DNA from: Gammaproteobacteria bacterium
GTDB lineage: Bacteria > Pseudomonadota > Gammaproteobacteria > SZUA-229
Assembly: GCA_029287435.1 (NCBI GenBank)
Contig: JARFRD010000086.1
Coordinates: forward strand, 1-46,331
Direction of reading: 5' to 3'
Length of the DNA: 46,331 bases
Part shown: piece after piece, positions 3,291-33,276 of the stretch
How positions within the stretch are numbered: position 1 is the stretch's first letter
Layout of the letters: every line of letters starts with the position of its first letter
The notes under the pieces: model-generated
Database searches by the model: none
The model's input: only the letters and a program-made list of their open reading frames with translations
Told to the model about the DNA's origin: nothing
Made by a program: the position numbers and the translations under genes

Positions 3291-3726
3291 GATTTATGCT
3301 GGTGAGGGCGTGTTTATCCAATAACGGATATTTAACTGCTCGTCTCTAAGATTTATCAGAATGAGGAAGAGGAGGGGACGTAAATCTGTACCGCACCATT
3401 TCACGAATATTATTAAGTGCCGGAATATTAACGAACACAGTCCTGAACGGTTATCTACAGTAGTGAAAATAACAAAGGGCATCACCACCATTAAGTTATA
3501 TAAAACAATTTCTTATGAATGATAGGTCAAGTTGTTAGCGAGGCGGTTGGGCGTGCAATTTGCTTAGAGCGCGCCATATGGCTGGGACAATGCTCTGCAT
3601 TTTGCTGGCAGGGTGATTGTTTTTTTCTTAGCTTCTGTGCTGGATTCCCGTAATACTTCTATGCCTGTTAATCTACATGCTACATGGTCTCTGTGCATCT
3701 GGTATCCCACGAGCGTTTCAGGCACG

Positions 3727-15461: not shown

Positions 15462-16013
15462 GGTTTATTCCTCGCAGTGAATAAATTTGTCGTTGAGAGT
15501 GATATTTTTTGTTAGGCAATATGATCGTAAGTAGAAGCGCAATACTGGATGCATGGACAGCAATGCGTTTAACTGTAATAACATAAAAGACCATGAGCTG
15601 GTTTTAGGTGTAACTTTAATTTGCACATAACTTAATAATTCATTTCCAGTAAATTTAGAATTTCCTTTCTGTCTTTAATTCTCTGTTGATATCAAGAGCG
15701 ACAAACTGATGCATTGAATTATTCAGTGCACAGTATTAGTGCTATTAAAATTATTTAGAAATCTACCGAAGGATTGTTTAACCATACCATTGTTTTATCC
15801 CATGAATTCTAAATTAATAGTGTAAGTAACTGAAATATATATTGATACTGAAATTGCATGGAAACTGGTCCAGGTCTTCATGTATTCATCTACAGCATAA
15901 GGTTCAGTTGTTACAGTAGATACCTAGCAAGATGTCTGCCAACCTGTAAACCAGGTACAAAACTCATCGTATATTTCAGGACGTTCATTCCACCCACATG
16001 TAAATTGTGTACC

Positions 16014-17741
16014 TTATTCATTCACCATGGATATATAACCAGTTGGACACTCGCTGGCGCATAGGCCGCAACCCTTACAGTAGTCATAGTCAAATACATA
16101 GAAGGAACCATCAAAAGTAACTTCATTGGTTTTCAGTACGGCACTATCAGGGCAGAGAGTCCAGCAGTTATCACAACGCAGGCAGTTACCGCAGGCGAAA
16201 CAACGATTGGCTTCATGGGCGGCCTGAAGCCCTGAAATACCTCCTTCGATTTCTGTTTCGCATGTACGCTCTTCAACAGAGAGAATTACCTGTTCTACGC
16301 GCGAACTGGGCTCAAAATATTCCATATTGAGACTATTGAAATGAACAGGCTCTGATTTATTTATTGTCGGCAGTTGTTGCTGCCTCAGTTTTGCAGCGAT
16401 AGCTTCTGCGGCAATTCTGCCGTTACCAATAGCCTCAGTGACAGTGCCACCATTACCTTCTACTGCATCACCGCCAGCGTAGATGTTTTCTTTGCCTTCA
16501 ATCTGTCCCCAGTCATCTACGCTGAAATAGGATTTGCCATCGAGTAAAGTTTCCATGCCAGCTGCATCAACCACCTGCCCAATGGCCGGAATAACCTGGT
16601 CAACGTGGAGTATACTTTCCGTTCCTTCAAAGGCTACGCGATGCAGACGGCCTTCCTCATCGGGTAACTTGCGCATACGCAGGATTTCTATGCCGGTCAG
16701 TTTTTCACCGCGCAGGATCAAGCGCTTAACGCCATGATGATCATGTATTTGCACACCTTCTTCGAGTGCCTGCTCGATCTCCCGTGGAATAGCGCGCATG
16801 TCATCTGCTGCAGGCTTATCTGGATCTGGCAGGCTACTGTGAATGACGATATGTGTGTCGACACCGTTACGATTCAGAATGCGTGCGATGTCAATAGCAG
16901 TATTACCACCGCCAATGACGGCGGCACTTTTCATCGCTGGCAGGCTTGCTACATCACTCCATTGTTTGAGCAGGTGTAGTCCTTCATGCAGATCATAGGG
17001 TGTAACACCATCCACACTCCATTCGTTACTTTTCATTACACCGGGAGCGAGAAATACTGCTGCATACTCTTGCTGAAGTTCAGGTAAGTGGATTTCACGC
17101 CCCAGCTTATGCCTTGATTTAAACGAGATGCCGGTATCCAGCAGACGTTCAATCTCTTTTCTTACGATCTCACGGGGGAGACGATAGTCCGGGATAGTGA
17201 ACAGGGTGCCGCCGGCTTCGGAAAGTTCATCGAATACCGTTACCTGCAGTCCATGGCGAATCAGATGATAGGCTGATGCCAGTCCTGCCGGTCCGGCTCC
17301 GACGACAGCAACGTGAGGTGCATTTTCAGCAGCAGGTGATACCGGGTATGCCCAGTTTTTTGCGAGCGCCTGATCACCTAGATAGCGTTCAATACTGTGA
17401 ATAGCTAACGGCTCATCGTATTGCCCGCGGTTGCATACTGATTCACAGGGATGAGGACAGACTCTGCCAGTGATAGCAGGGAGCGGATTGATGCTAACCA
17501 GTAATTCCCACGCTTCACGCGGCTTGTCTTCGTCCAGCAGAGCAAGGTATGCCTGGGGGTCTTCACCTGCCGGGCATGCAGAATGGCACGGAGCATTCCT
17601 GTGTGTGTGAACAGGCCGCTGAATGCGCCATGAACCAGTTTTGTATACCAGTGTGGTACCGGGATATGCGAAGCCGCCACGGGTTAGTTTCGATTCCATA
17701 CTGCTGATCCTGTTTATGCCCAGCGCATGCCGCCACGACAA
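16014..17741 (-). CDS. GltD-like FAD/NAD(P) oxidoreductase with C-terminal 2x[4Fe-4S] PorD-like ferredoxin domain (probable start at 17699)
   Basis: APCHSACPAGEDPQAYL, VVGAGPAGLASAYHL, VIGGGNTAIDIARIL, C-term CFACGNCLRCDNCWTLCPD and CKGCGLCASECPTGYISM. Confidence 0.9.
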   Translation of the reverse strand: MSWRHALGINRISSMESKLTRGGFAYPGTTLVYKTGSWRIQRPVHTHRNAPCHSACPAGEDPQAYLALLDEDKPREAWELLVSINPLPAITGRVCPHPCESVCNRGQYDEPLAIHSIERYLGDQALAKNWAYPVSPAAENAPHVAVVGAGPAGLASAYHLIRHGLQVTVFDELSEAGGTLFTIPDYRLPREIVRKEIERLLDTGISFKSRHKLGREIHLPELQQEYAAVFLAPGVMKSNEWSVDGVTPYDLHEGLHLLKQWSDVASLPAMKSAAVIGGGNTAIDIARILNRNGVDTHIVIHSSLPDPDKPAADDMRAIPREIEQALEEGVQIHDHHGVKRLILRGEKLTGIEILRMRKLPDEEGRLHRVAFEGTESILHVDQVIPAIGQVVDAAGMETLLDGKSYFSVDDWGQIEGKENIYAGGDAVEGNGGTVTEAIGNGRIAAEAIAAKLRQQQLPTINKSEPVHFNSLNMEYFEPSSRVEQVILSVEERTCETEIEGGISGLQAAHEANRCFACGNCLRCDNCWTLCPDSAVLKTNEVTFDGSFYVFDYDYCKGCGLCASECPTGYISMVNE

Positions 17742-18736
17742 ACTGTATCGGCTCCATCTGAGTCTTGAGCATCCATGCCTTCGCCACGTAGTTTGAAGTG
17801 TTTAATGTTGTGATCAGCCAGTGCCTGTATATGTGCGAGTTCTTCAATAGCACGAACATCACCTTGCTGAAACAGGTGCCGGAACCGCTGTTGCAGTACC
17901 AGATAATCGGTCACAGGTTTGGGGTTACGGATTGGCATGCTACCAATCATTTCCCTGCTTTCAAGCTCAATGACCGGGAATAGTCCGGTCTGGACAGCCA
18001 GGCGCGCAACCTTGATGCTATCTGCTCCGTCATGGCCCCAGCCCAGCGGGCAGGGACTATGGATCTGGATAAATGTCGGCCCTTCTATTTCCATTGCACG
18101 ACGAATTTTCTTGCGAAGATCAGAGGGGTATGCGACTGATGCTGTGGCAGCGTAGGGTATATGATGTGCAGCGACAATAGAGAGGATATCTTTCTTAAGA
18201 TTCTGTTTACCCATACGTGCACTGCCCGGCGGCGATGTCGTTGTCATGGCCGCATGCGGTGTCGAACTGGAACTTTGAATACCGGTGTTCATATATGCTT
18301 CGTTATCGAAGCAGACAAAAAGAACATTGTGTCCTCGCTCCAGCATACCCGAAAGTGACTGGAAACCGATATCAAAAGTACCGCCATCGCCAGCGAAGGC
18401 TAATACTTTGGTGGGTTTCCCCTGGGCCTTGAGTGCGGCTTCCATACCTGCTGCAATAGCGCCTGTATTTTCGAATAAGGAATGCATCCATGGTAGTCGC
18501 CATGCAGATTCTGGCCATGGTGTAGTAAAAATCTCCAGGCAACCTGTCGCATTTGCAATCATCACATCAGGGCCTGCGGCTTCAGTGACCAGCCTGGCGG
18601 CAAGTGCTTCACCACAACCCAGGCAGGCACGATGGCCGGATTCAAGGCCTTCAAAGCGCGGCTGGTTTTTTCGCAACTGCATGAGTGTCTCGGGCGTGAC
18701 TGTTTGTGTATCTTCATTCATATCAGTTTTACTCAA
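17714..18736 (-). CDS. 2-oxoacid:acceptor (ferredoxin-type) oxidoreductase, beta (TPP-binding) subunit
   Basis: HRACLGCGEALAARLV, AGDGGTFDIGFQSLSGMLERGHNVLFVCFDNEAYMNTGIQSSSSTP. Confidence 0.92.
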   Translation of the reverse strand: MSKTDMNEDTQTVTPETLMQLRKNQPRFEGLESGHRACLGCGEALAARLVTEAAGPDVMIANATGCLEIFTTPWPESAWRLPWMHSLFENTGAIAAGMEAALKAQGKPTKVLAFAGDGGTFDIGFQSLSGMLERGHNVLFVCFDNEAYMNTGIQSSSSTPHAAMTTTSPPGSARMGKQNLKKDILSIVAAHHIPYAATASVAYPSDLRKKIRRAMEIEGPTFIQIHSPCPLGWGHDGADSIKVARLAVQTGLFPVIELESREMIGSMPIRNPKPVTDYLVLQQRFRHLFQQGDVRAIEELAHIQALADHNIKHFKLRGEGMDAQDSDGADTVCRGGMRWA

Positions 18737-18747
18737 TACATCCCTGT

Positions 18748-19941
18748 TTAATTTGTAGCGGCACCAGTACCATGGTCTTCGGCTGACAGTTTCTCCAGCT
18801 CCACATCTATGATTGAAAAAGGTGCTGGCACGGCTACTTCGACCTGCTTGTGCAGTTTGCGGTAGATTTCCAGTGGCATATCACGCCCACCAAGACCGAC
18901 AGCAAAACTGTGCACTCTTACCTCGCTTGCCATATGTGTCAGTGCTGCCTGCACTTCCGATGAAACGATACCCCCGAAACCGGGTGACAGTGCGCGCTCA
19001 AGAACAATGAGATCAGTTAGTTCAGAACATGCCTGGCGAAGAGCATCGACAGGGAATGGCCTGTAGGAACGCAGTTTGATTAATTTAGTAGCGGGCAGTT
19101 CTGTGAAGGTATCACGTGCCGCGCATAATGTGCCAAAAATCGATCCCAATGTCAGGATTCCGATGTGTGCATCTGCAGGCCCGTCAACACTGAGTAGACT
19201 GCCCGCAGAACGACCGGAGAGCTGTTGCCAGTCAGTATCGGCTGCAACGATTTCATTGATGGCATCAAGTAGTGCATGGTGATGTGAATGCCTTGCTTCA
19301 GAATAGTGATCCGGAGAAACCAGAGTACCGACACTGGTTGGTTTCAATGGATCGAGTGCACGAGAGAAGTTGAATGGCGGCAGATACGTATCGACCATTT
19401 TCTGGTCAGGGATATCGATCGGTTCAAGAGTATGCGTCAGCGTGAAGCCGTCCATGCAAACCATCACAGGCAGCTCGGTTGCTTCTGAAATTCGATAGGC
19501 CTGGATAGTGGTATCAACAGCCTCCTGATTGTCTGAGCAGTAAAGCTGTATCCAGCCGGCATCTCTTACAGCCATTGAATCCTGCTGGTCATTCCAGATT
19601 GAAAGTGGGGCTGATATTGCCCGGTTAGCGCAGGTCATCACCATCGGTATACGAAGTCCGGCGATATTGTAGAGCACCTCGCTCATTAACAGGATGCCCT
19701 GTGAAGCACTCGCGGTATAGGTCCTTGAACCGGCACTGGCTGCGCCGAGGACTAGCGATGCGGCAGAGAACTCACTCTCCACACTCACCAGTTCGCATTC
19801 CATTTTGCCATTGGCGACGAGTTTGGCTATGTTTTCCACGATATGGGTCTGTGGCGTAATAGGATAGGCTGCCACAACTTGTGGACGGCATAGCGCGACT
19901 GTCTGGGCAATGGCCTGTGATCCTTCTAGTGCTTTACGCAT
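18748..19941 (-). CDS. 2-oxoacid:acceptor oxidoreductase, alpha subunit (ORF track start 20001; MRKALEGSQ start at 19941 preferred)
   Basis: MRKALEGSQAIAQTVALCRPQVVAAYPITPQTHIVENIAKL, ESEFSAASLVLGAASAGSRTYTASASQGILLMSEVLYNIAGLRIPMVMTCANRA. Confidence 0.92.
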   Translation of the reverse strand: MRKALEGSQAIAQTVALCRPQVVAAYPITPQTHIVENIAKLVANGKMECELVSVESEFSAASLVLGAASAGSRTYTASASQGILLMSEVLYNIAGLRIPMVMTCANRAISAPLSIWNDQQDSMAVRDAGWIQLYCSDNQEAVDTTIQAYRISEATELPVMVCMDGFTLTHTLEPIDIPDQKMVDTYLPPFNFSRALDPLKPTSVGTLVSPDHYSEARHSHHHALLDAINEIVAADTDWQQLSGRSAGSLLSVDGPADAHIGILTLGSIFGTLCAARDTFTELPATKLIKLRSYRPFPVDALRQACSELTDLIVLERALSPGFGGIVSSEVQAALTHMASEVRVHSFAVGLGGRDMPLEIYRKLHKQVEVAVPAPFSIIDVELEKLSAEDHGTGAATN

Positions 19942-20506
19942 TGGCTGTTTGTTTCCACAAATTTGCTGGTATAGTTTTAGATGCAGCTTCAATAAGTGCA
20001 ATATTTTTTTCCAGTACTTCGCCTTTGAAGCGTTCTTTCAGTGAATCAGTTAATGAAGACACAGGAAGCAAATCCGTGAGCTGAAGAAAAGCTGACAATA
20101 GTGCCGTATTGGGTACTGGGCGCCCCAGGTACTGCAGCGCCAGTTGTGTAGCCGGCAAGGTTACCAGACTGCTGTGGACAATGTCTTCACTGGCATAGGC
20201 TTCGCTGCTTTTCGATGTGTTCAACAAAATACTGCCGCCGCTTTTCAGGCCTTCCGTGATACCGGGGACATTCATCAGGGCATCATCCTGAATAATGAGA
20301 AAGTCTGGAGATGCAACCTGACAGCGGCGCCTGATTGGTTCATGATTGAGTCGCACGAATGCGACTACTGGTGCACCGCGGCGTTCCGCGCCAAAAGCGG
20401 GAAATGCCTGTGCGTGCCATCCTTCATTGATGGCAGAGGTCGCAAGCAGGTAGGCTGCGACGACATTTCCCTGTCCGCCACGGCCATGTATTCTTACCTC
20501 AATCAT
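19934..20506 (-). CDS. 2-oxoacid:acceptor oxidoreductase, gamma subunit
   Basis: MIEVRIHGRGGQGNVVAAYLLATSAINEGWHAQAFPAFGAERRGAPVVAFVRL. Confidence 0.93.
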   Translation of the reverse strand: MIEVRIHGRGGQGNVVAAYLLATSAINEGWHAQAFPAFGAERRGAPVVAFVRLNHEPIRRRCQVASPDFLIIQDDALMNVPGITEGLKSGGSILLNTSKSSEAYASEDIVHSSLVTLPATQLALQYLGRPVPNTALLSAFLQLTDLLPVSSLTDSLKERFKGEVLEKNIALIEAASKTIPANLWKQTANA

Positions 20507-20962: not shown

Positions 20963-21934
20963 CTATTGGTGCTGTCTAAATTTATATATCTTCGGCGAGA
21001 CTTCCTTGCCTTCGAAATAGCTGTAAGTTAGCTCATCATTTAAATCATATAATATTAGCTGTAATTCATTGATGAATTCGTTCAATCTTCCACCAACAAT
21101 CTTAGTAATATCGATATTGTCAATCTTTCGTTGTGCGCGCACAAGGGCATACTGTGGTGCTTCATTTAACGGCAGGTTACGCAGACACAGTTCAACCTGA
21201 GTGAGGCAGTGCCTGATTGCACGCGGAAAATAAGTATCCTGTAATAAAAAACGCAATACCTCTACACCACGTACACGCACATGCACATAGCGTCTGTACA
21301 TCTGGTATCCGGCAAGAGAATCAAGCACACTTTTCCACTGGATGTCATCAAATGGCTTGAGTTCTTCATCATGCTTAGGTAATAGATTGTCGGCCCTTAC
21401 ATCTATTACGCGCGAAGTCATATCGGCTCGCTCGATATTACGACCCAGACGCACGAACTCGTATATCTGGTCATGGCTCATAGATGCTGACAACTTCCCC
21501 GTTATCAGGTGGCAGGAATCAATAACATGGCTCAAAAACTCATAACGACTGCGGCGGGTCAGAACCGCAGACTTGTTGGCTTTTGCATAGCTGTAAAGAT
21601 CGTTTAGTGTTTCCCAGACGCCGCGTGGGAAAATTGCCCTTGATGTGCGCAGGTTCTCGCGCGAATTTTTCAATGAGCAGAGCATGCAGCTCTGGTTATT
21701 GGTATCCATCACGAGAAACCGCATTACGTTACGTTCACTGGCCTCCTTGTAAGTGTCATAAAATATTTCTGACTTACCGGTAATCGATACAAGTGGTGCC
21801 CAGCCCAGAGTAGCGTTGCGCGGCATATCCAATAACAGGTTATTGTTGACCAGCACCATACGTGCCGTATTCTCGACACGCTCGACATAACGTGCAAACC
21901 AGTAAACACGCTCAGCTACACTTGATAGCAACAT
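20963..21934 (-). CDS. Alpha-E domain (DUF403) protein
   Basis: MLLSSVAERVYWFARYVERVENTARMVLVNNNLLLDMP...; GRNIERADMTSRVIDVRADNLL. Confidence 0.92.
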   Translation of the reverse strand: MLLSSVAERVYWFARYVERVENTARMVLVNNNLLLDMPRNATLGWAPLVSITGKSEIFYDTYKEASERNVMRFLVMDTNNQSCMLCSLKNSRENLRTSRAIFPRGVWETLNDLYSYAKANKSAVLTRRSRYEFLSHVIDSCHLITGKLSASMSHDQIYEFVRLGRNIERADMTSRVIDVRADNLLPKHDEELKPFDDIQWKSVLDSLAGYQMYRRYVHVRVRGVEVLRFLLQDTYFPRAIRHCLTQVELCLRNLPLNEAPQYALVRAQRKIDNIDITKIVGGRLNEFINELQLILYDLNDELTYSYFEGKEVSPKIYKFRQHQ

Positions 21935-21936
21935 GT

Positions 21937-23385
21937 TTATGCTCCTCCTGTTTCAACAATCCATGTATCCTTGCTACCACCTCCCTGTGATGAATTAACA
22001 ACCAGGGAACCTTTGTTGAGTGCCACACGTGTCAGTCCGCCACGCGTGACATGCATACTATCACCAGAAAGAATAAATGGTCTCAAATCAACATGACGTG
22101 GTTCTATTTCCCCATCACATAATGTTGGCACTGTCGATAATGATAATGTCGGCTGTGCAATATAGTTGCGAGGGTTCTTCTTTATCAGTGCTGCAAATTC
22201 CCGGTGCATGCGTTTACTGGCAGCAGGACCCACCATCATGCCATATCCGCCAGATTCGTTTGCTGGTTTGACGACCATATTCTCGAGGTTGGCGAGCACA
22301 TGCTCACGTTGTTTATCATCCATGCACAGGTAGGTCGGTACGTTTGGCAGGATGGCATCTTGATCCAGGTAGTAACGAATCATATCCGGCACATATGCAT
22401 AAACAACCTTGTCATCGGCAACACCTGCACCAGGCGCATTGGCAATGGCCACGTTGCCTTTTCTCCATGCGTTCATTATGCCGGGTACGCCTAACATGGA
22501 ATCCGGGTTGAATACTTGAGGGTCCAGAAACAGATCATCAACCCTTCGATAAATGACATCGACACGGGAACGACCATTGATTGTTTTCATAAACACAATA
22601 TCATCTTCAACGATCAGATCACTGCCGCTAACAAGTTCAACACCCATTTGTTGGGCCAGGTATGAATGTTCAAAATAGGCTGAGTTATAGATACCCGGTG
22701 TCAGCACAACGATAGATGGATACTCTGTTGGCTGTGCAGACAGAGAAGCCAGCATATCGAACAGGCGCGTCGAATAGCCGTCGATAGGCAGGATGCTGTG
22801 ATCCTCAAACAGTTCGGGAAAAACGCGCTTCATAACGAGGCGATTTTCCAGCATATATGAAACACCCGACGGTACTCTCAAGTTATCTTCTAATACATAC
22901 ATGGTGCCGTCAAAATCACGAACCAGGTCACTCCCGCAGATGTGAGCCCAGACTCCATGGGCAGGTTTTATTCCCATGCATTGTTCACGAAAGTTAACAG
23001 ATTGTTTGAGTACTTCTGCCGGAAATATTCCGTCTTTGATGATTTTCTGTTTATCGTAAATATCGGCGATGAACATATTCAGCGCCTGAGCGCGTTGTAT
23101 GAGTCCTTCTTCTATACGTTGCCACTCGCGAGCCGATATAATGCGCGGGATAATATCAAACGGCCATACCCTGTCGATACCACCTTCTTCACTATAGACT
23201 GTAAAGGTAATGCCCATTACATGCATGGCCAGTTCTGCAGCTTCTCTCCGCTCCTTGAGGTCTTCTTCACTGAGGTTGCGAAGATAATGCATTACTTTGC
23301 CGGCACCACTACGAGCGCGCCCACTGGATGTTAATAGTTCATCGTAAGTGTCTTTGCTTGAATAATGTTTCCAGTCAATAGTCAT
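21937..23385 (-). CDS. Circularly permuted ATP-grasp type 2 protein (DUF404/DUF407)
   Basis: DIYDKQKIIKDGIFPAEVL, GTMYVLEDNLRVPSGVSYMLENR, VVLTPGIYNSAYFEHSYLAQQMGVELVSGSDL, VVKPANESGGYGMMVG. Confidence 0.93.
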   Translation of the reverse strand: MTIDWKHYSSKDTYDELLTSSGRARSGAGKVMHYLRNLSEEDLKERREAAELAMHVMGITFTVYSEEGGIDRVWPFDIIPRIISAREWQRIEEGLIQRAQALNMFIADIYDKQKIIKDGIFPAEVLKQSVNFREQCMGIKPAHGVWAHICGSDLVRDFDGTMYVLEDNLRVPSGVSYMLENRLVMKRVFPELFEDHSILPIDGYSTRLFDMLASLSAQPTEYPSIVVLTPGIYNSAYFEHSYLAQQMGVELVSGSDLIVEDDIVFMKTINGRSRVDVIYRRVDDLFLDPQVFNPDSMLGVPGIMNAWRKGNVAIANAPGAGVADDKVVYAYVPDMIRYYLDQDAILPNVPTYLCMDDKQREHVLANLENMVVKPANESGGYGMMVGPAASKRMHREFAALIKKNPRNYIAQPTLSLSTVPTLCDGEIEPRHVDLRPFILSGDSMHVTRGGLTRVALNKGSLVVNSSQGGGSKDTWIVETGGA

Positions 23386-23446
23386 ATGAACAACGGTATT
23401 CAGTGTTAAGTCAGTAACAGGTGTTTCTTATGATATGCATTAATAA

Positions 23447-23462
23447 GCAAGCTATATGCCAA
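23447..23462 (-). promoter_or_regulatory. Putative sigma-54 promoter (-24/-12) for the ATP-grasp/alpha-E operon
   Basis: Minus strand TTGGCATATAGCTTGC: GG-N10-GC, 62 bp upstream of the start at 23385. Confidence 0.55.
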
Positions 23463-23561
23463 TATCAAGCGCACAGGATGTTGCTAGTTAACTAAAGAAA
23501 TGGAGCATACGCTAATTGATTCATGATTACTTGCACCATTTCGGGCACTCTACGATTGCAT

Positions 23562-23582
23562 ATTGCACTCATTAAGTGCAAT
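23562..23582. promoter_or_regulatory. NtrC-like palindromic enhancer (UAS) candidate
   Basis: ATTGCACT-catta-AGTGCAAT, perfect 8-bp arms; contains TGCAC-N7-GTGCA, the NtrC-type arrangement. Confidence 0.55.
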
Positions 23583-23673
23583 TGCTTTATTTCGAAAAGA
23601 GCCAGGCATTTGAAGGTATACATAATCATCAAAATACTAAAGAGTTTGTTGATTAGATTGTAACAATAAAAAA

Positions 23674-23689
23674 TGGCGCATTTATTGCA
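23674..23689 (+). promoter_or_regulatory. Putative sigma-54 promoter (-24/-12) for the HPPD-like gene
   Basis: TGGCGCATTTATTGCA: GG-N10-GC, 47 bp upstream of the ATG at 23737. Confidence 0.55.
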
Positions 23690-23736: not shown

Positions 23737-24990
23737 ATGCATAGAAAAATGACAGAATCATTAATTTTCCCGAGGCAGGGAGACAAACAAAACTCGGATT
23801 TTTTTGAAGAATACCTGGTGCGTCTACTTGAAGAACGCGATCATAGTGGGCTGACTGATATCATTCACGAAATAGAAGCAATCATGATAACGGTTGATCC
23901 TGGGCACTCGATTCGCTATATCGGCGAACTGTCCTTAATGACCCCTTATCACTACCTCGTTACACTGGAAAGTGAGGATCACTGGACGCACATTCTTCGT
24001 GTCGACATGAACTCACCGGATTTTCTCGTGCGCGAAGTTAAAGACCCGTCCATCCAGGGGGTTTTCCGCAGTCTTAATGAGATTTACCCAATAGGAATGC
24101 GGAAACCGAATAGTCGCTACATGGGCGAGATTTTACGTGTCGACAATCTACATGAAGTTGTTGAAAAACAGAAAGAACGTGAATTTCGATTTTTTTCACA
24201 GGATCAGATACGCCGCATGCAACTTCCCGGTAATCTTGCCATCAGCAAACCTTCTCCCTATACACATAATATCGTGTCATACATGGAGAGACCACTGGAT
24301 CAGATACGTACCTATGCACTGGGTGTAAGTGCCATTCGCGATGATGTACAGGAAGTCTACCTTGCTGCTAAATCCATGCAGAAAGAACTGGGAATCAATG
24401 ATTTAATCATGCCGATAGACCATCTTGCGACACGTATATACAGTCAGAACCGTGAAGTAGCAATACTGGAATGGCTGTCCTTGTCCAGCTATTACTATTG
24501 GGGTTCATATGATATAACCGACCAGAACTCCTCAACCAATGTCACTAAAAGTGTGCATTGCCCAAATGAAATGCAGTCCCCGGCAAAGGTCTTTACAGCC
24601 AACAACACCCCTTACTTCGTGAACCATCTGGAAAAACTGCCTTCACCAACAGAGACATTTGTGCGTAACTATGGACCTCGACTGCATCATATTGCACTGG
24701 CCGTTGCCGACGGTGAACGCAACGGTATGGAAAATATCGATTATGTAGTAAAACAGATTGCATCGCAGGGACGGGACTTTTTGCTAGATGTGATTGGATC
24801 AAAAGATGATGGCCTGAAGCAGATATTCTCCAGCGCGTCGGAACATTCATCTCTGATAATCGAATATGTCCAGCGTTTTGGTGACTTCAACGGTTTCTTT
24901 ACCAAGCACAACGTTGCGGAGCTCACTCACGCTGCCGGCGTTGAAGAGGAACTGCTGGAAATGCAGGCAGAATCAGAAATTACGCATTAG
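23737..24990 (+). CDS. VOC-fold, 4-hydroxyphenylpyruvate dioxygenase-like protein of unknown substrate
   Basis: C-terminal half shows a His/His/Glu pattern: MPIDHLATRIY, RLHHIALAV, SLIIEYVQRFGDFNGFFTKHNVAEL; N-terminal ~200 aa not recognised. Confidence 0.65.
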   Translation: MHRKMTESLIFPRQGDKQNSDFFEEYLVRLLEERDHSGLTDIIHEIEAIMITVDPGHSIRYIGELSLMTPYHYLVTLESEDHWTHILRVDMNSPDFLVREVKDPSIQGVFRSLNEIYPIGMRKPNSRYMGEILRVDNLHEVVEKQKEREFRFFSQDQIRRMQLPGNLAISKPSPYTHNIVSYMERPLDQIRTYALGVSAIRDDVQEVYLAAKSMQKELGINDLIMPIDHLATRIYSQNREVAILEWLSLSSYYYWGSYDITDQNSSTNVTKSVHCPNEMQSPAKVFTANNTPYFVNHLEKLPSPTETFVRNYGPRLHHIALAVADGERNGMENIDYVVKQIASQGRDFLLDVIGSKDDGLKQIFSSASEHSSLIIEYVQRFGDFNGFFTKHNVAELTHAAGVEEELLEMQAESEITH

Positions 24991-25030: not shown

Positions 25031-25828
25031 TTAAAACTCACTGTCATCTATACATTGCACGCTAACCTGCTGCCCTAACGCATAGATTGCAGGCCCAAAT
25101 TGATTATAGACAGCAACATCGGCTGCATCACGACCATAACCGATTGCGACATATCCCCCCGTCAACTCTGCCTGTGTTGCATCGAAGGTGTACCAGCGTC
25201 CTCCCACGTAGGCCTCGAACCAGGCATGAAGGTCCATCGGCTCAAGTCCATAGAAATAGCCCACGACCATGCGCGCAGGTATCGTCAGGCTGCGGCATAA
25301 TGCGATACCAAGATGAGACAAGTCCCGACAGACACCGGTTTTCCTGTTGTTTACTTCCACTGCTGACAACGCGATGTCGCTGCTGCCAGGCTGGTAACTG
25401 ATTGTACTGCGTAACCATGCTACGATAGCCGTGACCTGATCATAACCTGTCAACTGGTTTGCCGTAATTTCGGTCGCTAACTGACCAAAACGGTCCGACT
25501 CACAGTAGCGACTGGGCAACAGGTAACTGAGCACGGCTTCGGGCAGGTTCTGGACCTCGACGTACGGTGCCCCGGGTTCCTGGTCCATGTTATCCGTAAT
25601 CATTACATCTGCGGCGGTTCGTACAACGAAGATGCCAGGCGGGGCAATCAGTCGTTGACAGAGATTGCCGTAGTTGTCGGTGAATTCAACTACGGGAACG
25701 CTAGGCTCCAGTCTGTATTCTTCACGTGCGATCCATTGCTGTGAGCCACTGCGCGGGCGCAGCATCAACACAAAAGGCGTTGATTCAGCAATGTCAAAGG
25801 TTAAACAACAGCTTGTGCGTAACCACAT
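25031..25828 (-). CDS. Transglutaminase-like cysteine peptidase-fold protein
   Basis: Cys/His/Asp motifs: [48 protein letters not shown]. Confidence 0.88.
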
Positions 25829-25880
25829 CTATTTAACACCATATAAAAATGACAGTAGGATTTATAGAGCTTTCATTGAT

Positions 25881-26762
25881 CTATGTTTTGATGCGCTCGA
25901 CATCAACTGAAACATCTAGTCTGTTTTTCTTACCACCGCCAAAAATAATGCCCTTTAGTGGAGCAACATCTGCATAATCCCGTCCCCATGCTACAGTGAT
26001 ATGTTGCTCTTTCGGGATTTTTGCATTGGTGGGATCAAAATCAACCCAGCCCAGATGTGGGACGTAGACACTGAACCACGCATGTGATGCATCAGCGCCT
26101 ACAAGTTTTTCCTTGCCTTGCGGGGGTATCGTTTCAAGGTAGCCGCTGACATATCGTGCCGCCAGGCCCTGCATGCGTAGACAGGTGATGGCCAGGTGTG
26201 CGAAATCCTGGCACACACCTTTTTTGTGCTTCAATACTTCTTTCAAAGGTGTAGCGATGGTGCTGAACCCCGGATCATATTTAAAGTCCTGGTGTATGCG
26301 GTGCATCAGATTTTCAACAGCATCCAGCAACGGTCTGTCCTTGCGGAATGATGGCTTGCTATAGCTTACAACATCCATGATGAAATCGGTAAAATCTGAT
26401 TCGAGCACATAAAGCCTGTTATCAATAATATCCGGATCAGATGTAGTATTAATATATTCAACTGCCTGTTCCCAGCCTATAGATGTCTCGCCGGGCGGCA
26501 GTGTGCTGGAAAACACTTCTACTTCACTGATAGCCGTAACGCTTAGCTCTTTGTGTGGCATTTGAATACTGAAACTGGCCCGACGGTTGCCAAACAGGTC
26601 CGACCACTCATTCACGTTGGCAGGCAAAGGATCGATGAGCAGTTGACTCAGTTGGCAGCTCTGGTTCGGTGTGATCCGCGGCAGCAAATGGGCAATGTTA
26701 TGGCACAGTGTTACGTTCTCGCTGTAGGTGTATTTCGTGGTATGTGTCACACGGTATTTCAT
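25881..26762 (-). CDS. Transglutaminase-like protein with bacterial transglutaminase N-terminal domain
   Basis: MKYRVTHTTKYTYSENVTLCHN, KKGVCQDFAHLAITCLRMQGLAARYVSGY, ASHAWFSVYVPHLGWVDFDPTN. Confidence 0.93.
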   Translation of the reverse strand: MKYRVTHTTKYTYSENVTLCHNIAHLLPRITPNQSCQLSQLLIDPLPANVNEWSDLFGNRRASFSIQMPHKELSVTAISEVEVFSSTLPPGETSIGWEQAVEYINTTSDPDIIDNRLYVLESDFTDFIMDVVSYSKPSFRKDRPLLDAVENLMHRIHQDFKYDPGFSTIATPLKEVLKHKKGVCQDFAHLAITCLRMQGLAARYVSGYLETIPPQGKEKLVGADASHAWFSVYVPHLGWVDFDPTNAKIPKEQHITVAWGRDYADVAPLKGIIFGGGKKNRLDVSVDVERIKT

Positions 26763-29329
26763 GTGGTAGACCTCGAACGCAGCTGCACAAGCTGATGTGG
26801 TGCTTTTGTTGTGTGGAAATATGTTACGGTTAATGAATCTGCCAATGCCGGCAACCTGACCGCTAGAATATCCAGAAAATTATCCAGTGTATCGCGACGG
26901 TTGCTTTCCTTGTTTGGCACGCTCAGCCTGTTCACGTCGGCCAGTCTAACCAGAGAGGCGGCTTCCTGGGCAACTCGTACGAGTTCACTTTGAATATCTG
27001 ATTCCTCTTTATGCGGCAGGGCGGCAATGTGTTCTTCCAGCCTGGAAAACTGATAAGCCAGTGAACGTGGATTGTTTTCATCACACAGAACGAGATCAAG
27101 CAATTGGGGAATCTTGACACCATAGCGGTAGCGTCGACGATAAGTCATCAGACTATCTACGATCGTAAGCATTGAATCCGACAACAGGGTTTCATCCTCT
27201 CCACTGGTTACTGTGGCGACCGTCGATTTTGTCAGTCGAATAATTTGCAGTGCACGCTCAATCCGACGTCCAGTATCAAGGAAACTCCAGCTGCGGCCGC
27301 GCACCATGTTTTCCAGCGTCAGGCCTGTAAAAGCCGTTAAAGCGGTAATCAGGTTGTCCAGTTCATCCAGTGCGTCAACAATTCGATCCTGACTAATGTC
27401 GGACAGTGAGCGAAGTTCTTTATCGATATCGTTGATTACACGCCAGGTGTCTGATGATAAACGATCACGTACCGAGCGCGCTGAACGCAGCAATGCGCTC
27501 AGCGTCTGTGAAAGACTGCCGGCTTTCTGTTGATTGGAAATTACAGTCAGTAATTCTGCTTCCAGCATCTCGACATTATCGGTGTCAGTCAGAGCAGTAA
27601 AGCCGGGGTAGGTCGTGGTCTGGTTGGTTACTGCAATTAGCAGCTGTTTGAATGCGGTCGAGCCTGCACCTTCTCCTGTTTCGAGGAACTGCAGGGCCAA
27701 TCGTAACAGACGGCTGCTGAACTCAGCCCGTTCAGCATAACGACCAACCCAGAACATATTGTCCGCAACGCGACCCGGTACTTCGCCGCCCCTGTCGGGT
27801 GCAAGCCTTGCCTGTCTTCTTTCAGAAAGCAGGCTGATATGTTTTTCCGGTTCTGTAGCAAGCACCCATGTATCCTTACTGATGCCTCCCGCCTGGTTGG
27901 AGACCATCAGTGTGTCTTCACTGGATGAAACGCGCGTCAAGCCTCCCGGCATTACCATATAATCACTTTCACCTGCGATAAGGAAACCACGCAGAACTGA
28001 ATGGCGGGGCCTGAGACCGGTTTTGTCCAACACCGGAACAGTGGACATGGAGACACTTTCCTGTCCAACATACAGATGTGGCCTGGCACTGATGCTTTGC
28101 TTCAGTTCATCCAGTTGCTGCCTGGATAATTCAGCGCCAAAATGGACCCTGAAACCGATACCCGGATGAACCGGTTTTATCACCAGGCGATGCAAATTAG
28201 CCAGCACATGCTCACGCTGGGCTGGTATGCCGCACCACCAGGTCTGCAATGATGGAATCCGCAGGTCTTCACCGAGGAAATATTTTGACAGTGTGGGCAG
28301 GAAAGCCAACAGCGCAGGATTTTCCAGTATACCACTGCCAAGCGGGTTGGCGATGCTGACATTGCCCATTCGCGCTACATTGGTCAAACCGGGCACACCC
28401 AGATAGGAATCATCGCGCAATTCAACCGGGTCACAATAGCTATCATCCATGCGCCGCATAATGACATCGACCGGACGTAAGCCTTCCAGTGTGCTCAGCC
28501 AGACCCGGTTGTCGCGCACGGTTAGATCTTCACCTTCTACAAGCGTATAACCGAGATAATTGGCCAAATAGGCATGCTCAAAATAGGTCTCGTTTGCGGG
28601 ACCCGGGCTCAACAGCACAATATTGGGCTCTTCTCCTTCGCGCGGAGACAGTGTGTTCAGGGTGTTGCGTGTGGTGCGAAAAAAGTTTGCCAGCCTGTGG
28701 GTATGTGAATCCCTGAACAGGCTAGGTAACACGCGTGATATCACCAGTCTGTTTTCCAGCGCGTAACCGGTGCCGGAGGGTGCCTGTGTTCGGTCACTTA
28801 ACACATTGATCTGCCCGTCGGTGTCTCTGACCAGGTCAGCCGCATAGAATGTTAATGCGCGTGAACCCGGCATCGGTATGTTTGCGCAGGGATATAGAAA
28901 ACCGGGATGCGAATAAAGCAGCTCTGGCGGCAGAATGCCATTTCTGACCAGGTGACGGGGGCCGTAGAAGTCCTCTAGCACAAGGTTGAGCAATTCTGCA
29001 CGCTGCATCAAACCAGCTTCGATTGTTTGCCACTCTTTACTCTCGATCAGCAGTGGAACCAGGTCAAGCTTCCAGGGCCTGCCCATACCGCCCGGGTCAC
29101 CGTAGATGTTGTAGGTACCATCATTTTCGCGAATCAGACGCCAGGCTTCCTCCCGCCGATGTTGCAGCTCAGCACTGCCCATTCCATCGAGTGCTTCCAT
29201 CAGGTAATGCCAGTGAGAGCGAATGCCGCCATCGTGCATGCACATTTCATCATGGCTACCAGAGGCTTTATACTCATGGCACAGCCTTGCTGGATTATTA
29301 GTGATGTTTTCTGGTGAGCTCTGTTTCAA
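26759..29329 (-). CDS. Fused circularly permuted ATP-grasp + alpha-E protein
   Basis: N-term half DFYGPRHLVRNGILPPELLYSHPGFLYPC...LLSPGPANETYFEHAYLANYLGYTLVEGEDL; C-term half VADNMFWVGRYAERAEFSSRLLRLAL. Confidence 0.93.
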   Translation of the reverse strand: MKQSSPENITNNPARLCHEYKASGSHDEMCMHDGGIRSHWHYLMEALDGMGSAELQHRREEAWRLIRENDGTYNIYGDPGGMGRPWKLDLVPLLIESKEWQTIEAGLMQRAELLNLVLEDFYGPRHLVRNGILPPELLYSHPGFLYPCANIPMPGSRALTFYAADLVRDTDGQINVLSDRTQAPSGTGYALENRLVISRVLPSLFRDSHTHRLANFFRTTRNTLNTLSPREGEEPNIVLLSPGPANETYFEHAYLANYLGYTLVEGEDLTVRDNRVWLSTLEGLRPVDVIMRRMDDSYCDPVELRDDSYLGVPGLTNVARMGNVSIANPLGSGILENPALLAFLPTLSKYFLGEDLRIPSLQTWWCGIPAQREHVLANLHRLVIKPVHPGIGFRVHFGAELSRQQLDELKQSISARPHLYVGQESVSMSTVPVLDKTGLRPRHSVLRGFLIAGESDYMVMPGGLTRVSSSEDTLMVSNQAGGISKDTWVLATEPEKHISLLSERRQARLAPDRGGEVPGRVADNMFWVGRYAERAEFSSRLLRLALQFLETGEGAGSTAFKQLLIAVTNQTTTYPGFTALTDTDNVEMLEAELLTVISNQQKAGSLSQTLSALLRSARSVRDRLSSDTWRVINDIDKELRSLSDISQDRIVDALDELDNLITALTAFTGLTLENMVRGRSWSFLDTGRRIERALQIIRLTKSTVATVTSGEDETLLSDSMLTIVDSLMTYRRRYRYGVKIPQLLDLVLCDENNPRSLAYQFSRLEEHIAALPHKEESDIQSELVRVAQEAASLVRLADVNRLSVPNKESNRRDTLDNFLDILAVRLPALADSLTVTYFHTTKAPHQLVQLRSRSTT

Positions 29330-29403
29330 AATTTAACTGGCATGCCTGGTAAGCAAAGGTAAATACTTTACGCAACCACCCGCGGACTGGCAAATATGTC
29401 TAC

Positions 29404-32400
29404 TCAGCATGTTGGGGCTTTTCGAAGATCCAGCGTGAACGGATATTCCAGCGATTTCTCTTCAGCTGGAATGTCGATGGGTCCTGGCGTATGGCCGATG
29501 TCTTTGAAACGAGCAATTCGGCGTGATTCCGCTTCATTCGCGTTTACCGGAAAGGTTTCATAATGACGGCCGCCAGGGTGTCCGGAATAATAGGTGCAGC
29601 CACCAATTGAACGGCCATTCCAGCTATCCACGATATCAAACACCAATGGGGTGTGTACTGCTATCGTCGGATGCAAACCTGACGGCGGCTGCCATGCCTT
29701 GAAGCGCACACCGGCTATATATTCACCGCGACGTCCAGTTGGGCGCAAAGGTACACGTCTACCATTACAGGCAACAATATGACGCCCGCCTGTCATGCCA
29801 TTTACCCTGACCTGTATGCGTTCGACTGCTGAGTCGACGAACCTGGATGTCCCCTGTGCAGTGACTTCTTCACCCAGCACATGCCAGGGTTCAACTGCAG
29901 TGCTGAGCTGCAGCTGGATATCATCATATGTCACTTCTCCAATATGCGGGAAACGAAATTCGTGGAATGGTGAAAACCACTCCAGTTTCAGAGCATAGCC
30001 AGCATCCTGAAGATCGCAGATTACATCCTGCATATCCTGCCAGACATAATATGGCAGCAGAAAGCGATCGTGCAATTCTGTACCCCAGCGAACCGGGTTT
30101 TTCCGGTAAGGATTGTTCCAGAAACGGGCGACCAGAGATCTCAATAGCAACATCTGCACGATGCTCATTCTCGCATGCGGCGGCATTTCAAATGCACGAA
30201 ATTCAACTAAACCGAGTCGTCCGCTGGTACTCTCCGGGGAATAGAGCTTGTCGATACAGAACTCAGAGCGGTGGGTGTTGCCGCTGACATCGATCAGCAG
30301 GTTACGTAACAATCGGTCGACGATCCAGGGAGATGGTGTTTCACCTTCAGGAATCTGCTGGAATGCGATTTCAAGTTCATACAGACTATCGTCGCGCGCT
30401 TCATCGACTCTTGGTGCCTGGCTGGTTGGGCCAACAAATAGGCCTGAAAACAGGTAAGACAGGCCGGGGTGATGTTGCCAGTAGGTGACCAGACTCTGCA
30501 GCAGATCTGGTCTTCTCAACATTGGACTGTCTGCAGGCGTTGGTCCGCCCAGTGTTACGTGGTTGCCGCCGCCAGTACCGGTATGTCGGCCGTCGAGCAT
30601 GAACTTTTCTGTGCCCAGCCGGGACAATCGTGCTTCCTCGTATATGGCTTCAGTATTTGAAACCAGTTCGTTCCAGTCATGTGCTGGATGAATGTTAACT
30701 TCAATGACCCCGGGGTCAGGAGTAATAGCAAAGCGCTTAAGGCGATGATCATGCGGCGGTTCATAGCCTTCAAGAAACACCGGTATTTTCAGTTCTGCCG
30801 CTGTCGTTTCGATTGAATGCAGCAGATCCAGGTAATGTTCCAGGTGTGTGACAGGGGGCATGAATATGTAGAGATGGCCATCGCGCGGTTCCATGCACAA
30901 AGCTGTGTGTATGATTTCGTGTCTCTTTTCCGAGCTGTCTTCAACCGCCTCCTGCTGCTGCAAGCCAGCCTGTTTCGCAGGTTCGTTCCTGAACTCTGCA
31001 TAACGCCTGGCAACTTCGCCGTAAATGTCTCCCAGTGGTGGACGGGGCTCGAAGGTACTGCGTTCCGGGTCGGTCTCACGCTCGCGTTTCTTCTTGTCGA
31101 CCCACGGCAGGGAATCCAGTGGAAGGCGGTAGCCCATGGGGGAATCGCCAGGTAATAAAAACAGGTGACCACGCCTAAATGACCACGCACCTGAACGCCA
31201 GCACTCTACATCTCCAGAACTGTCCCACTTGATTGGCAGCACATAGCCAGTTACTTTATCAATGCCTTTATCGAACATCCGTTGTAAGCGCTTTCTTTCT
31301 ACTGGATCTTCCAGTTTGTTGTCCAGGGCATCGACATTGTCGGGAAGGTTTGCCTCCTTCCACATGTAGTAGTAAACATCTTCGTATGCCGGCTGAATAG
31401 CATCTTCAGCAACATCCAGATAACGGCTTAATACTTTTGTGAAGCGGTGCGCATCTTCTGCGCTATAGTTCTGCTCGCTGTCTTCCTTTGCGATCCATTG
31501 TGGATCATGCCAGACCGGCACACCATCTTCGCGCCAGTAACAACCCAGTGCCCAACGAGGCAGGACCTCGCCCGGGTACCATTTACCCTGACCGAAATGC
31601 AAGGCAGCCCCTGCAGCAAAACGCTGCTTGAGTCGCTGCAGCAGATTGCCGGCGAGTTTACGTTTATCTTCGCCAAGAGCAGCGATATTCCATTCAGCAC
31701 CATCCATGTCGTCGATTGAAACGAATGTCGGTTCACCCCCCATGGTTAGGCGAACATCATTGTCCTTGAGATCCCTGTCTACTTGCTGTCCAAGTGCCAT
31801 AATTTCCGTCCACTGGAATTCGGAGTAGGGCAGAGTCACTCTCGGATCTTCGTGAATGCGCTGTACTTCATTGTGAAAGTAAAACTCGACCTCAGCTTTA
31901 TCTGTCGCTCCAGAAATTGCTGCCGCACTGACTGGACTGGGGGCACAGGCAAGCGGTATATGTCCTTCGCCGGCAAACAAACCTGATGTCGGATCCAGCC
32001 CGACCCAGCCGGCGCCCGGTAGGTAAACTTCGGTCCAGGCATGCAGATCAGTGAAATCTTTTTCAGTTCCTGAAGGCCCGTCCAGAGATTTTGAGTCAGC
32101 TTTTAACTGGATCAGGTAACCGGAGACAAACCTGGCGGCAAATCCTAGATGTCGCAGTATCTGTACGAGTAGCCACGCAGTATCGCGACAGGAACCCCGT
32201 CTCAGTGTAAGGGTCTCATCACACCTCTGGATGCCTTCCTCCATGCGAATATTATAGTCAATGTCTTTTTGCAGCCTCTGGTTAAGTGCAACTAGAAAAT
32301 CATTCGTTTGAGTGCGCGAACGATCGACTACGGCCAGCCATTTCTTTAGTAATGGGCCATTCGCAGAGATGGCCATGTATGGTGCCAGCTCCTTGGCAAG

Positions 32401-32727
32401 ACGTTTTGGATATTTAAATGGATAATGTTGTGCATATTCATCAAGGAAGAAGTCGAATGGGTTTATCACAACCATTTCAGCAATAAGATCAACCTCCACG
32501 GAAAGGCGTCTGGTTTTTTCAGGGAACACCAGCCGTGCCAGAAAATTTCCAAAAGGATCCTGTTGCCAGTTTAAGAAATGTTCTTCTGGCTGAACTTTCA
32601 AAGAGTAACTATGAATTGGTGTTCGCGTATGAACGGCAGGGCGCAAACGTACTGTATGCGGTGACAGCTTTACCGGTCTGTCGTATCGATATTCAGTTTT
32701 GTGATTAATCGCAACGCGAATTGCCAT
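29404..32727 (-). CDS. Large transglutaminase-like/DUF2126 protein (1107 aa)
   Basis: N-term MAIRVAINHKTEYRYDRPVKLSPHTVRLRPA, RRGSCRDTAWLLVQILRHLGFAARFVSGYLIQL, DLHAWTEVYLPGAGWVGLDPTSGL; C-term LTMGGEPTFVSIDDMDGAEWN, DGRHTGTGGGNHVTLGG. Confidence 0.94.
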   Translation of the reverse strand: MAIRVAINHKTEYRYDRPVKLSPHTVRLRPAVHTRTPIHSYSLKVQPEEHFLNWQQDPFGNFLARLVFPEKTRRLSVEVDLIAEMVVINPFDFFLDEYAQHYPFKYPKRLAKELAPYMAISANGPLLKKWLAVVDRSRTQTNDFLVALNQRLQKDIDYNIRMEEGIQRCDETLTLRRGSCRDTAWLLVQILRHLGFAARFVSGYLIQLKADSKSLDGPSGTEKDFTDLHAWTEVYLPGAGWVGLDPTSGLFAGEGHIPLACAPSPVSAAAISGATDKAEVEFYFHNEVQRIHEDPRVTLPYSEFQWTEIMALGQQVDRDLKDNDVRLTMGGEPTFVSIDDMDGAEWNIAALGEDKRKLAGNLLQRLKQRFAAGAALHFGQGKWYPGEVLPRWALGCYWREDGVPVWHDPQWIAKEDSEQNYSAEDAHRFTKVLSRYLDVAEDAIQPAYEDVYYYMWKEANLPDNVDALDNKLEDPVERKRLQRMFDKGIDKVTGYVLPIKWDSSGDVECWRSGAWSFRRGHLFLLPGDSPMGYRLPLDSLPWVDKKKRERETDPERSTFEPRPPLGDIYGEVARRYAEFRNEPAKQAGLQQQEAVEDSSEKRHEIIHTALCMEPRDGHLYIFMPPVTHLEHYLDLLHSIETTAAELKIPVFLEGYEPPHDHRLKRFAITPDPGVIEVNIHPAHDWNELVSNTEAIYEEARLSRLGTEKFMLDGRHTGTGGGNHVTLGGPTPADSPMLRRPDLLQSLVTYWQHHPGLSYLFSGLFVGPTSQAPRVDEARDDSLYELEIAFQQIPEGETPSPWIVDRLLRNLLIDVSGNTHRSEFCIDKLYSPESTSGRLGLVEFRAFEMPPHARMSIVQMLLLRSLVARFWNNPYRKNPVRWGTELHDRFLLPYYVWQDMQDVICDLQDAGYALKLEWFSPFHEFRFPHIGEVTYDDIQLQLSTAVEPWHVLGEEVTAQGTSRFVDSAVERIQVRVNGMTGGRHIVACNGRRVPLRPTGRRGEYIAGVRFKAWQPPSGLHPTIAVHTPLVFDIVDSWNGRSIGGCTYYSGHPGGRHYETFPVNANEAESRRIARFKDIGHTPGPIDIPAEEKSLEYPFTLDLRKAPTC

Positions 32728-32769
32728 TGTGTTTTCCGGTTAGGTGTTTTCTTATATCTGCATATTTCA

Positions 32770-32785
32770 GCAAGAACCGTACCAA
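32770..32785 (-). promoter_or_regulatory. Putative sigma-54 promoter (-24/-12) upstream of the DUF2126 operon
   Basis: Minus strand TTGGTACGGTTCTTGC: GG-N10-GC, 43 bp upstream of the start at 32727. Confidence 0.5.
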
Positions 32786-33276
32786 CTAATTAGTTATTAT
32801 TGACAGGCATTGCTGCTGATTTCTACTACTAACTTCTCAATAAATAATTTTATTTAACTGCATAGTTAAAAATTCATGCACTAATTTGATACGCGAATTG
32901 CAGATTGGATACCGTGAGCGTTTGATTTTGGTGCAACCCAGACTGATTTATGATTTTACTCATGGTCTATGATCTATGCGTGAGACTATCATATAAAATT
33001 ACGGGATGTATGGAATCCTACTACGAAGTCCTACATGACGTGCCATTTGAACAATATGTCTATCTATACCGACGAGTAATTTGTCACAGCGTTAACACAG
33101 TATATCATTCGTAGAACACAGTGCTTCACTGATCAATTAATTTTGCATAGGAAAGGAGAATCAGAGGAATACAGGTAGATGTTGTCCGGCCAGAGGATCA
33201 GAATACTTGCATGGAGGTGTTTAATGAAAAGCTATAGGGATATTAGCCAGGCAAACAAGAAAGGGGTTAGAAACTT

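Follow-up and report, generated by a model that had tools for sequence, protein, structure and literature searches.

The 351-bp region between the divergent ATP-grasp and HPPD-like genes in the window (the whole stretch of 46,331 nucleotides analyzed here) is very likely a divergent sigma-54 control region, activated by NtrC under nitrogen shortage. What the DNA shows directly is the motifs with their spacing, the conservation of both in relatives, and that rpoN and ntrBC are encoded in the genome. Since the organism is known here from a draft genome alone, the nitrogen control itself is what we infer.

Two sigma-54 elements, a palindrome and a degenerate second site had been noted in a preliminary description of this region, and all four were found at the positions given there (Table 1). 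Both sigma-54 promoters faced outward. From the minus-strand promoter to the start codon of the ATP-grasp gene (23385) the distance was about 76 bp, and from the plus-strand promoter to the first ATG (23737) of the HPPD-like frame it was 63 bp. The palindrome had been placed between the promoters at about 100 bp from each; the placement was confirmed, and the distances, counted from the TGG of the -24 box to the distal end of the NtrC core, were 110 bp for the plus promoter and 119 bp for the minus promoter. Both fall in the range of about 80-140 bp upstream in which the palindromic YGCAC-N7-GTGCR site of an NtrC-activated promoter is expected. The weak second site lay 32 bp from the palindrome; its distances to the plus and minus promoters were 142 and 87 bp. 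Such promoters usually carry NtrC sites in tandem with a spacing of about 30-32 bp, as was seen in glnK-amtB and in the cluster promoters.

Table 1 Positions of genes, promoters and candidate NtrC sites in the window
Feature	Positions	Strand	Details
Alpha-E protein (DUF403)	20963-21934	minus	PF04168, 263 bits
Circularly permuted ATP-grasp type 2 protein (DUF404/DUF407)	21937-23385	minus	PF14403, 563 bits
Sigma-54 promoter, ATP-grasp/alpha-E operon	23447-23462 / 23446-23461	minus	TTGGCATATAGCTTGC / TGGCATATAGCTTGCT; GG-N10-GC; 10/12 to TGGCACGN4TTGCW
Weak second candidate NtrC site	23532-23547 / 23532-23548		TGCACCATTTCGGGCA / TGCACCATTTCGGGCAC; 4.9 bits with glnK-derived matrix
21-bp palindrome	23562-23582		ATTGCACTcattaAGTGCAAT; perfect 8-bp arms
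Shared candidate NtrC-type enhancer (17-bp palindrome core, TGCAC-N7-GTGCA)	23564-23580		TGCACTCATTAAGTGCA; 14.3 bits with glnK-derived matrix
Sigma-54 promoter, HPPD-like gene	23674-23689	plus	TGGCGCATTTATTGCA; GG-N10-GC; 10/12
HPPD-like protein	23737-24990	plus	no Pfam or NCBIfam model
DUF2126 operon	25031-32727	minus
Two transglutaminases	25881-26762, 25031-25828	minus
ATP-grasp/alpha-E fusion	26759-29329	minus
DUF2126 gene	29404-32727	minus
Third sigma-54 promoter	32769-32784	minus	TGGTACGGTTCTTGCT; 11/12; 57 bp upstream of DUF2126 gene
NtrC-type site at third promoter	32877-32893		CGTATCAAATTAGTGCA (minus-strand reading); 15.2 bits; 109 bp from third promoter
Weaker NtrC-type site at third promoter	32919-32935		9.6 bits

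The glnK-amtB operon is a standard NtrC target. No promoters other than those of glnK-amtB in the same bacterial family went into the matrix for NtrC sites, which makes the motif independent of the locus under study. In these sigma-54 promoters, YGCAC-N7-GTGCR sites were situated about 92 bp, and often also 122 bp, from the TGG; the site of the genome itself was CGCACCAATCTGGTGCG at 92. The glnA gene of the genome was left out as a reference, its promoter lying beyond the contig end. The matrix scan, one of the checks proposed in advance, was performed with this lineage-specific matrix and gave the palindrome the score listed in Table 1. The draft genome (77% complete, contamination 4.5%) encoded rpoN (PF04552, E 1.8e-68) and NtrC, which scored 732 bits with TIGR01818 against the NCBIfam equivalog cut-off of 559. 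The ntrC gene was encoded after an NtrB-like kinase frame, with glnA on the same contig. A lack of rpoN or ntrC, which the preliminary description had regarded as evidence against its proposal, was looked for, and rpoN, ntrB and ntrC were all in the genome.

The sigma-54 promoters could be real and the enhancer read by another activator, such as an AtoC-like response regulator, in which case the signal would not be nitrogen. Seven full sigma-54 activators, NtrC among them, were encoded in the genome, and the remaining activators scanned, several of them of AtoC-like types, scored under the NtrC cut-off. However, the motif and its spacing match those of the glnK-amtB sites in the same family, and the homologous Burkholderia genes are known to be NtrC-dependent (PMC5491218). 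This alternative was therefore considered unlikely, although it is the strongest of those weighed here.

With 11 sigma-54 matches of 10/12 in 46 kb, such elements by themselves were not rare in the window, and the case therefore rests on the combination of motifs and on conservation. The relatives were drawn from 195 stretches of the genome collection that encode an HPPD-like relative, of which 80 loci were fetched. The intergenic DNA was barely alignable among the near relatives that share the divergent layout (L021, L022, L024 and G002). In all four, the minus promoter matched 11-12 of the 12 consensus positions; the plus promoter was kept at -47 to -104 of the orthologues, and the sigma-54 matches in relatives improved to 11-12/12. 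The spacing of the shared enhancer in near relatives was 110-113 and 119-120 bp. The NtrC site of G002 at 120 bp reached 12.1 bits, with another at 88 bp; both promoters were strong in L022 with a weak NtrC site (7.5 bits), and L066 had the promoters without a good NtrC site. In longer intergenic regions (L026, L029, L039, L041 and L046), the minus promoter had a separate NtrC site, 80-81 bp away. The conservation in orthologous intergenic regions that had been proposed as a check was accordingly borne out for the promoters and for the enhancer spacing. These comparisons also bear on the reading that one direction is used and the opposite sigma-54-like element is a chance match with no co-regulation. 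The abundance of 10/12 sites in the window favors it, but in relatives both elements keep their position and reach 11-12/12 while the rest of the intergenic DNA has diverged, and such a reading was judged improbable.

The conservation extended to other promoters of the cluster. A total of 29 NtrC sites of at least 9 bits were detected in the expected stretch of 40 cluster promoters, compared to 0.34 in single-base shuffles. Sigma-54 sites preceded 38 of 47 ATP-grasp genes, many of them with 12/12 matches, and perfect 12/12 matches were found before the ATP-grasp genes of betaproteobacterial operons. Other arrangements were also observed. In the Methylococcaceae-type loci L081, L082, L087 and L090, the HPPD-like gene was divergent from an NAD-malic enzyme-like gene, with opposed sigma-54-like promoters in most. 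In L032 (1242-3340), one of the divergent neighbors resembled an isoaspartyl peptidase/asparaginase and the other a possible ATP-grasp protein of 372 aa. Sigma-54/NtrC-like sites were paired there at 3394 and 3614, and this arrangement is suggestive of nitrogen-rich peptide turnover.

Shuffle controls were applied to the motifs and their combination. When the intergenic region was shuffled 200 times with dinucleotides preserved, the palindrome scored above every shuffle. Exact copies of TGCAC-N7-GTGCA numbered 4 in the 2.62-Mb genome; besides the one studied here, one of the 4 precedes a second HPPD-like gene (contig C78). The copies in C82, inside a coding frame, and in C108, ahead of an ATP-binding (ABC-F-like) gene, were not obviously regulatory. 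When a pair was defined as a sigma-54 match of at least 10/12 and an NtrC site of at least 9 bits, 78-126 bp apart, 3 pairs were observed in the window compared to a mean of 0.03 and a maximum of 1 in 100 dinucleotide shuffles, the expectation of 0.03 being approximate because the range was chosen after inspecting glnK and relatives. Across the 80 loci, the 200 bp directly upstream of cluster genes make up 4.4% of the sequence and contained 28 of 37 promoter/enhancer pairs; several of the other 9 were the promoters facing the other way in these intergenic regions. Elsewhere in the window, a minus-strand sigma-54-like site (10/12) lay at 15941; the NtrC-like site near it (15727, 13.0 bits) was downstream of it, and the pair is probably a chance occurrence. 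That all three motifs are chance resemblances is extremely improbable: consensus matches by themselves are weak evidence, but the shuffle controls and the conserved spacing contradict it.

One of the three pairs in the window belonged to a third sigma-54 promoter, before the DUF2126 operon, which was absent from the preliminary description (Table 1). The same layout of DUF2126 promoter and NtrC site was found in G030 (L191) at 112 bp. With this third promoter, the cluster as a whole resembles a single regulon. Directly downstream of the alpha-E gene and on the same strand were genes resembling a 2-oxoacid:ferredoxin oxidoreductase set with an FAD/NAD-linked subunit (16014-20506). The same genome also contained a separate Anbu-like locus (contig C72, L194, 388-4514), in which genes for ATP-grasp, alpha-E and a putative third protein converge with an Anbu gene. 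Its sigma-54 promoter (11/12) was accompanied by a 21.8-bit NtrC-like palindrome downstream of the promoter and 17 bp before the start codon, a position as if for repression or another start.

The HPPD-like protein was highly conserved, with 69-89% identity across 25 orthologues, and its conserved first residues (MT.SL.FPR) suggest that the true start is likely ATG 23749. No match was obtained with TIGR01263 or the Pfam VOC models, Glyoxalase_4 appearing at E 0.13 only, and no HPPD (4-hydroxyphenylpyruvate dioxygenase) match was found in the genome itself. Profile comparison with true HPPD (TIGR01263) gave a low-probability alignment that covers 138 columns at about 25% identity (single-comparison p 0.006). 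In this alignment, IDHLAT, LHHIAL and IEYVQR pair with three iron-ligand segments, which we take to carry the H...H...E iron ligands of HPPD. The aligned residues H229, H318 and E376 were invariant in the family, and the N-terminal half had no match. Given the low probability of the alignment, the iron site is put forward as a hypothesis. The label "HPPD-like" of the preliminary description thus has weak sequence support, and the family matches no Pfam or NCBIfam model. A profile search of solved structures with the family returned nothing, no relative was found in the plasmid collection, and structure prediction with 26 orthologues was unsuccessful (mean pLDDT 41).

The HPPD-like gene was linked to the cluster in other genomes. 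In 39 of 56 loci with full flanks, no more than about 4 kb separated it from a stand-alone ATP-grasp gene, a DUF2126 gene or the ATP-grasp/alpha-E fusion; in 27 of these it was downstream of the ATP-grasp gene on the same strand, and in 8 divergent from it. The second HPPD-like gene of the same assembly (L133, C78, 4245-5675) was 89% identical and had an 11/12 sigma-54 promoter with its exact NtrC palindrome 110 bp away. The C78 contig could be a contaminant, given the contamination level of the assembly. An HPPD-like partner of the cluster was not found in the literature searched, which is not proof of absence.

Taken as a divergent NtrC/sigma-54 control region, the locus would work as follows. 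Under nitrogen shortage, NtrB would phosphorylate NtrC, which may then bind the palindrome, aided by the weak site 32 bp away. Bound NtrC would form an ATPase assembly and, through DNA looping, open the sigma-54 RNA polymerase poised at each of the two promoters, turning on the ATP-grasp/alpha-E genes on the left and the HPPD-like gene on the right. The third NtrC/sigma-54 promoter would simultaneously turn on the operon of DUF2126, ATP-grasp/alpha-E and transglutaminase genes. That NtrC binds and activates here, and that nitrogen is the signal, are predictions of this scheme; any product or target of the proteins is likewise inferred. The nitrogen co-regulation of the ATP-grasp/alpha-E operon and the HPPD-like gene proposed in the preliminary description was supported by the matrix scan, the conservation, rpoN and ntrBC, and the papers on B. 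cenocepacia and P. putida discussed below, and the mechanism proposed there is very probably right.

This kind of regulation is already known; what is new here is the divergent layout with a shared candidate enhancer and the predicted joining of the HPPD-like family to the regulon. There is perhaps an even chance that this family is an undescribed iron-dependent enzyme of the ATP-grasp/alpha-E/transglutaminase peptide-making or protein-modifying system, a partner under nitrogen scarcity in many gamma- and betaproteobacteria. Conserved predicted NtrC/sigma-54 control over several promoters indicates when the widespread ATP-grasp/alpha-E/transglutaminase genes would act, and the highly conserved, unannotated HPPD-like family becomes a likely partner of this poorly understood peptide-ligase cluster. 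The system is thereby made testable in culturable relatives, e.g. Methylomonas or Methylotenera.

Compared to known systems, the HPPD-like protein has three invariant residues that fall on the iron-ligand segments of HPPD in the low-probability alignment, and it differs in its low identity, its unmatched N-terminal half and its lack of a Pfam or NCBIfam match. The control region shares with the glnK-amtB promoters of the same family a sigma-54 promoter and YGCAC-N7-GTGCR sites, often in tandem about 30 bp apart; glnK-amtB is read in a single direction, whereas the window has one site shared at 110/119 bp. In B. cenocepacia H111, I35_5080-5083 (DUF404/407, DUF403 and two transglutaminase-like proteins) are common targets of NtrC and sigma-54, and the list of NtrC targets gives them changes of -6.0 to -9.4 (PMC5491218). 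That cluster is like the one in the window in its ATP-grasp, alpha-E, transglutaminase-like and large transglutaminase-like proteins under NtrC/sigma-54, a control established by experiment in B. cenocepacia and predicted for the window; no HPPD-like gene is named there, and it is one numbered cluster, in contrast to the divergent units with a common enhancer in the window. In P. putida, PP_2685-2688 rise under nitrogen limitation and are assigned to NtrB/NtrC (PMC7801951, PMC8050072), and the Anbu operon has been described with its function unknown (PMC6376114, PMC5666114). The window cluster has in common with this operon the ATP-grasp, alpha-E and transglutaminase genes, the induction by nitrogen shortage being that of P. 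putida; the P. putida operon contains the proteasome-like Anbu, whereas the window cluster is without Anbu nearby and has the HPPD-like gene instead.
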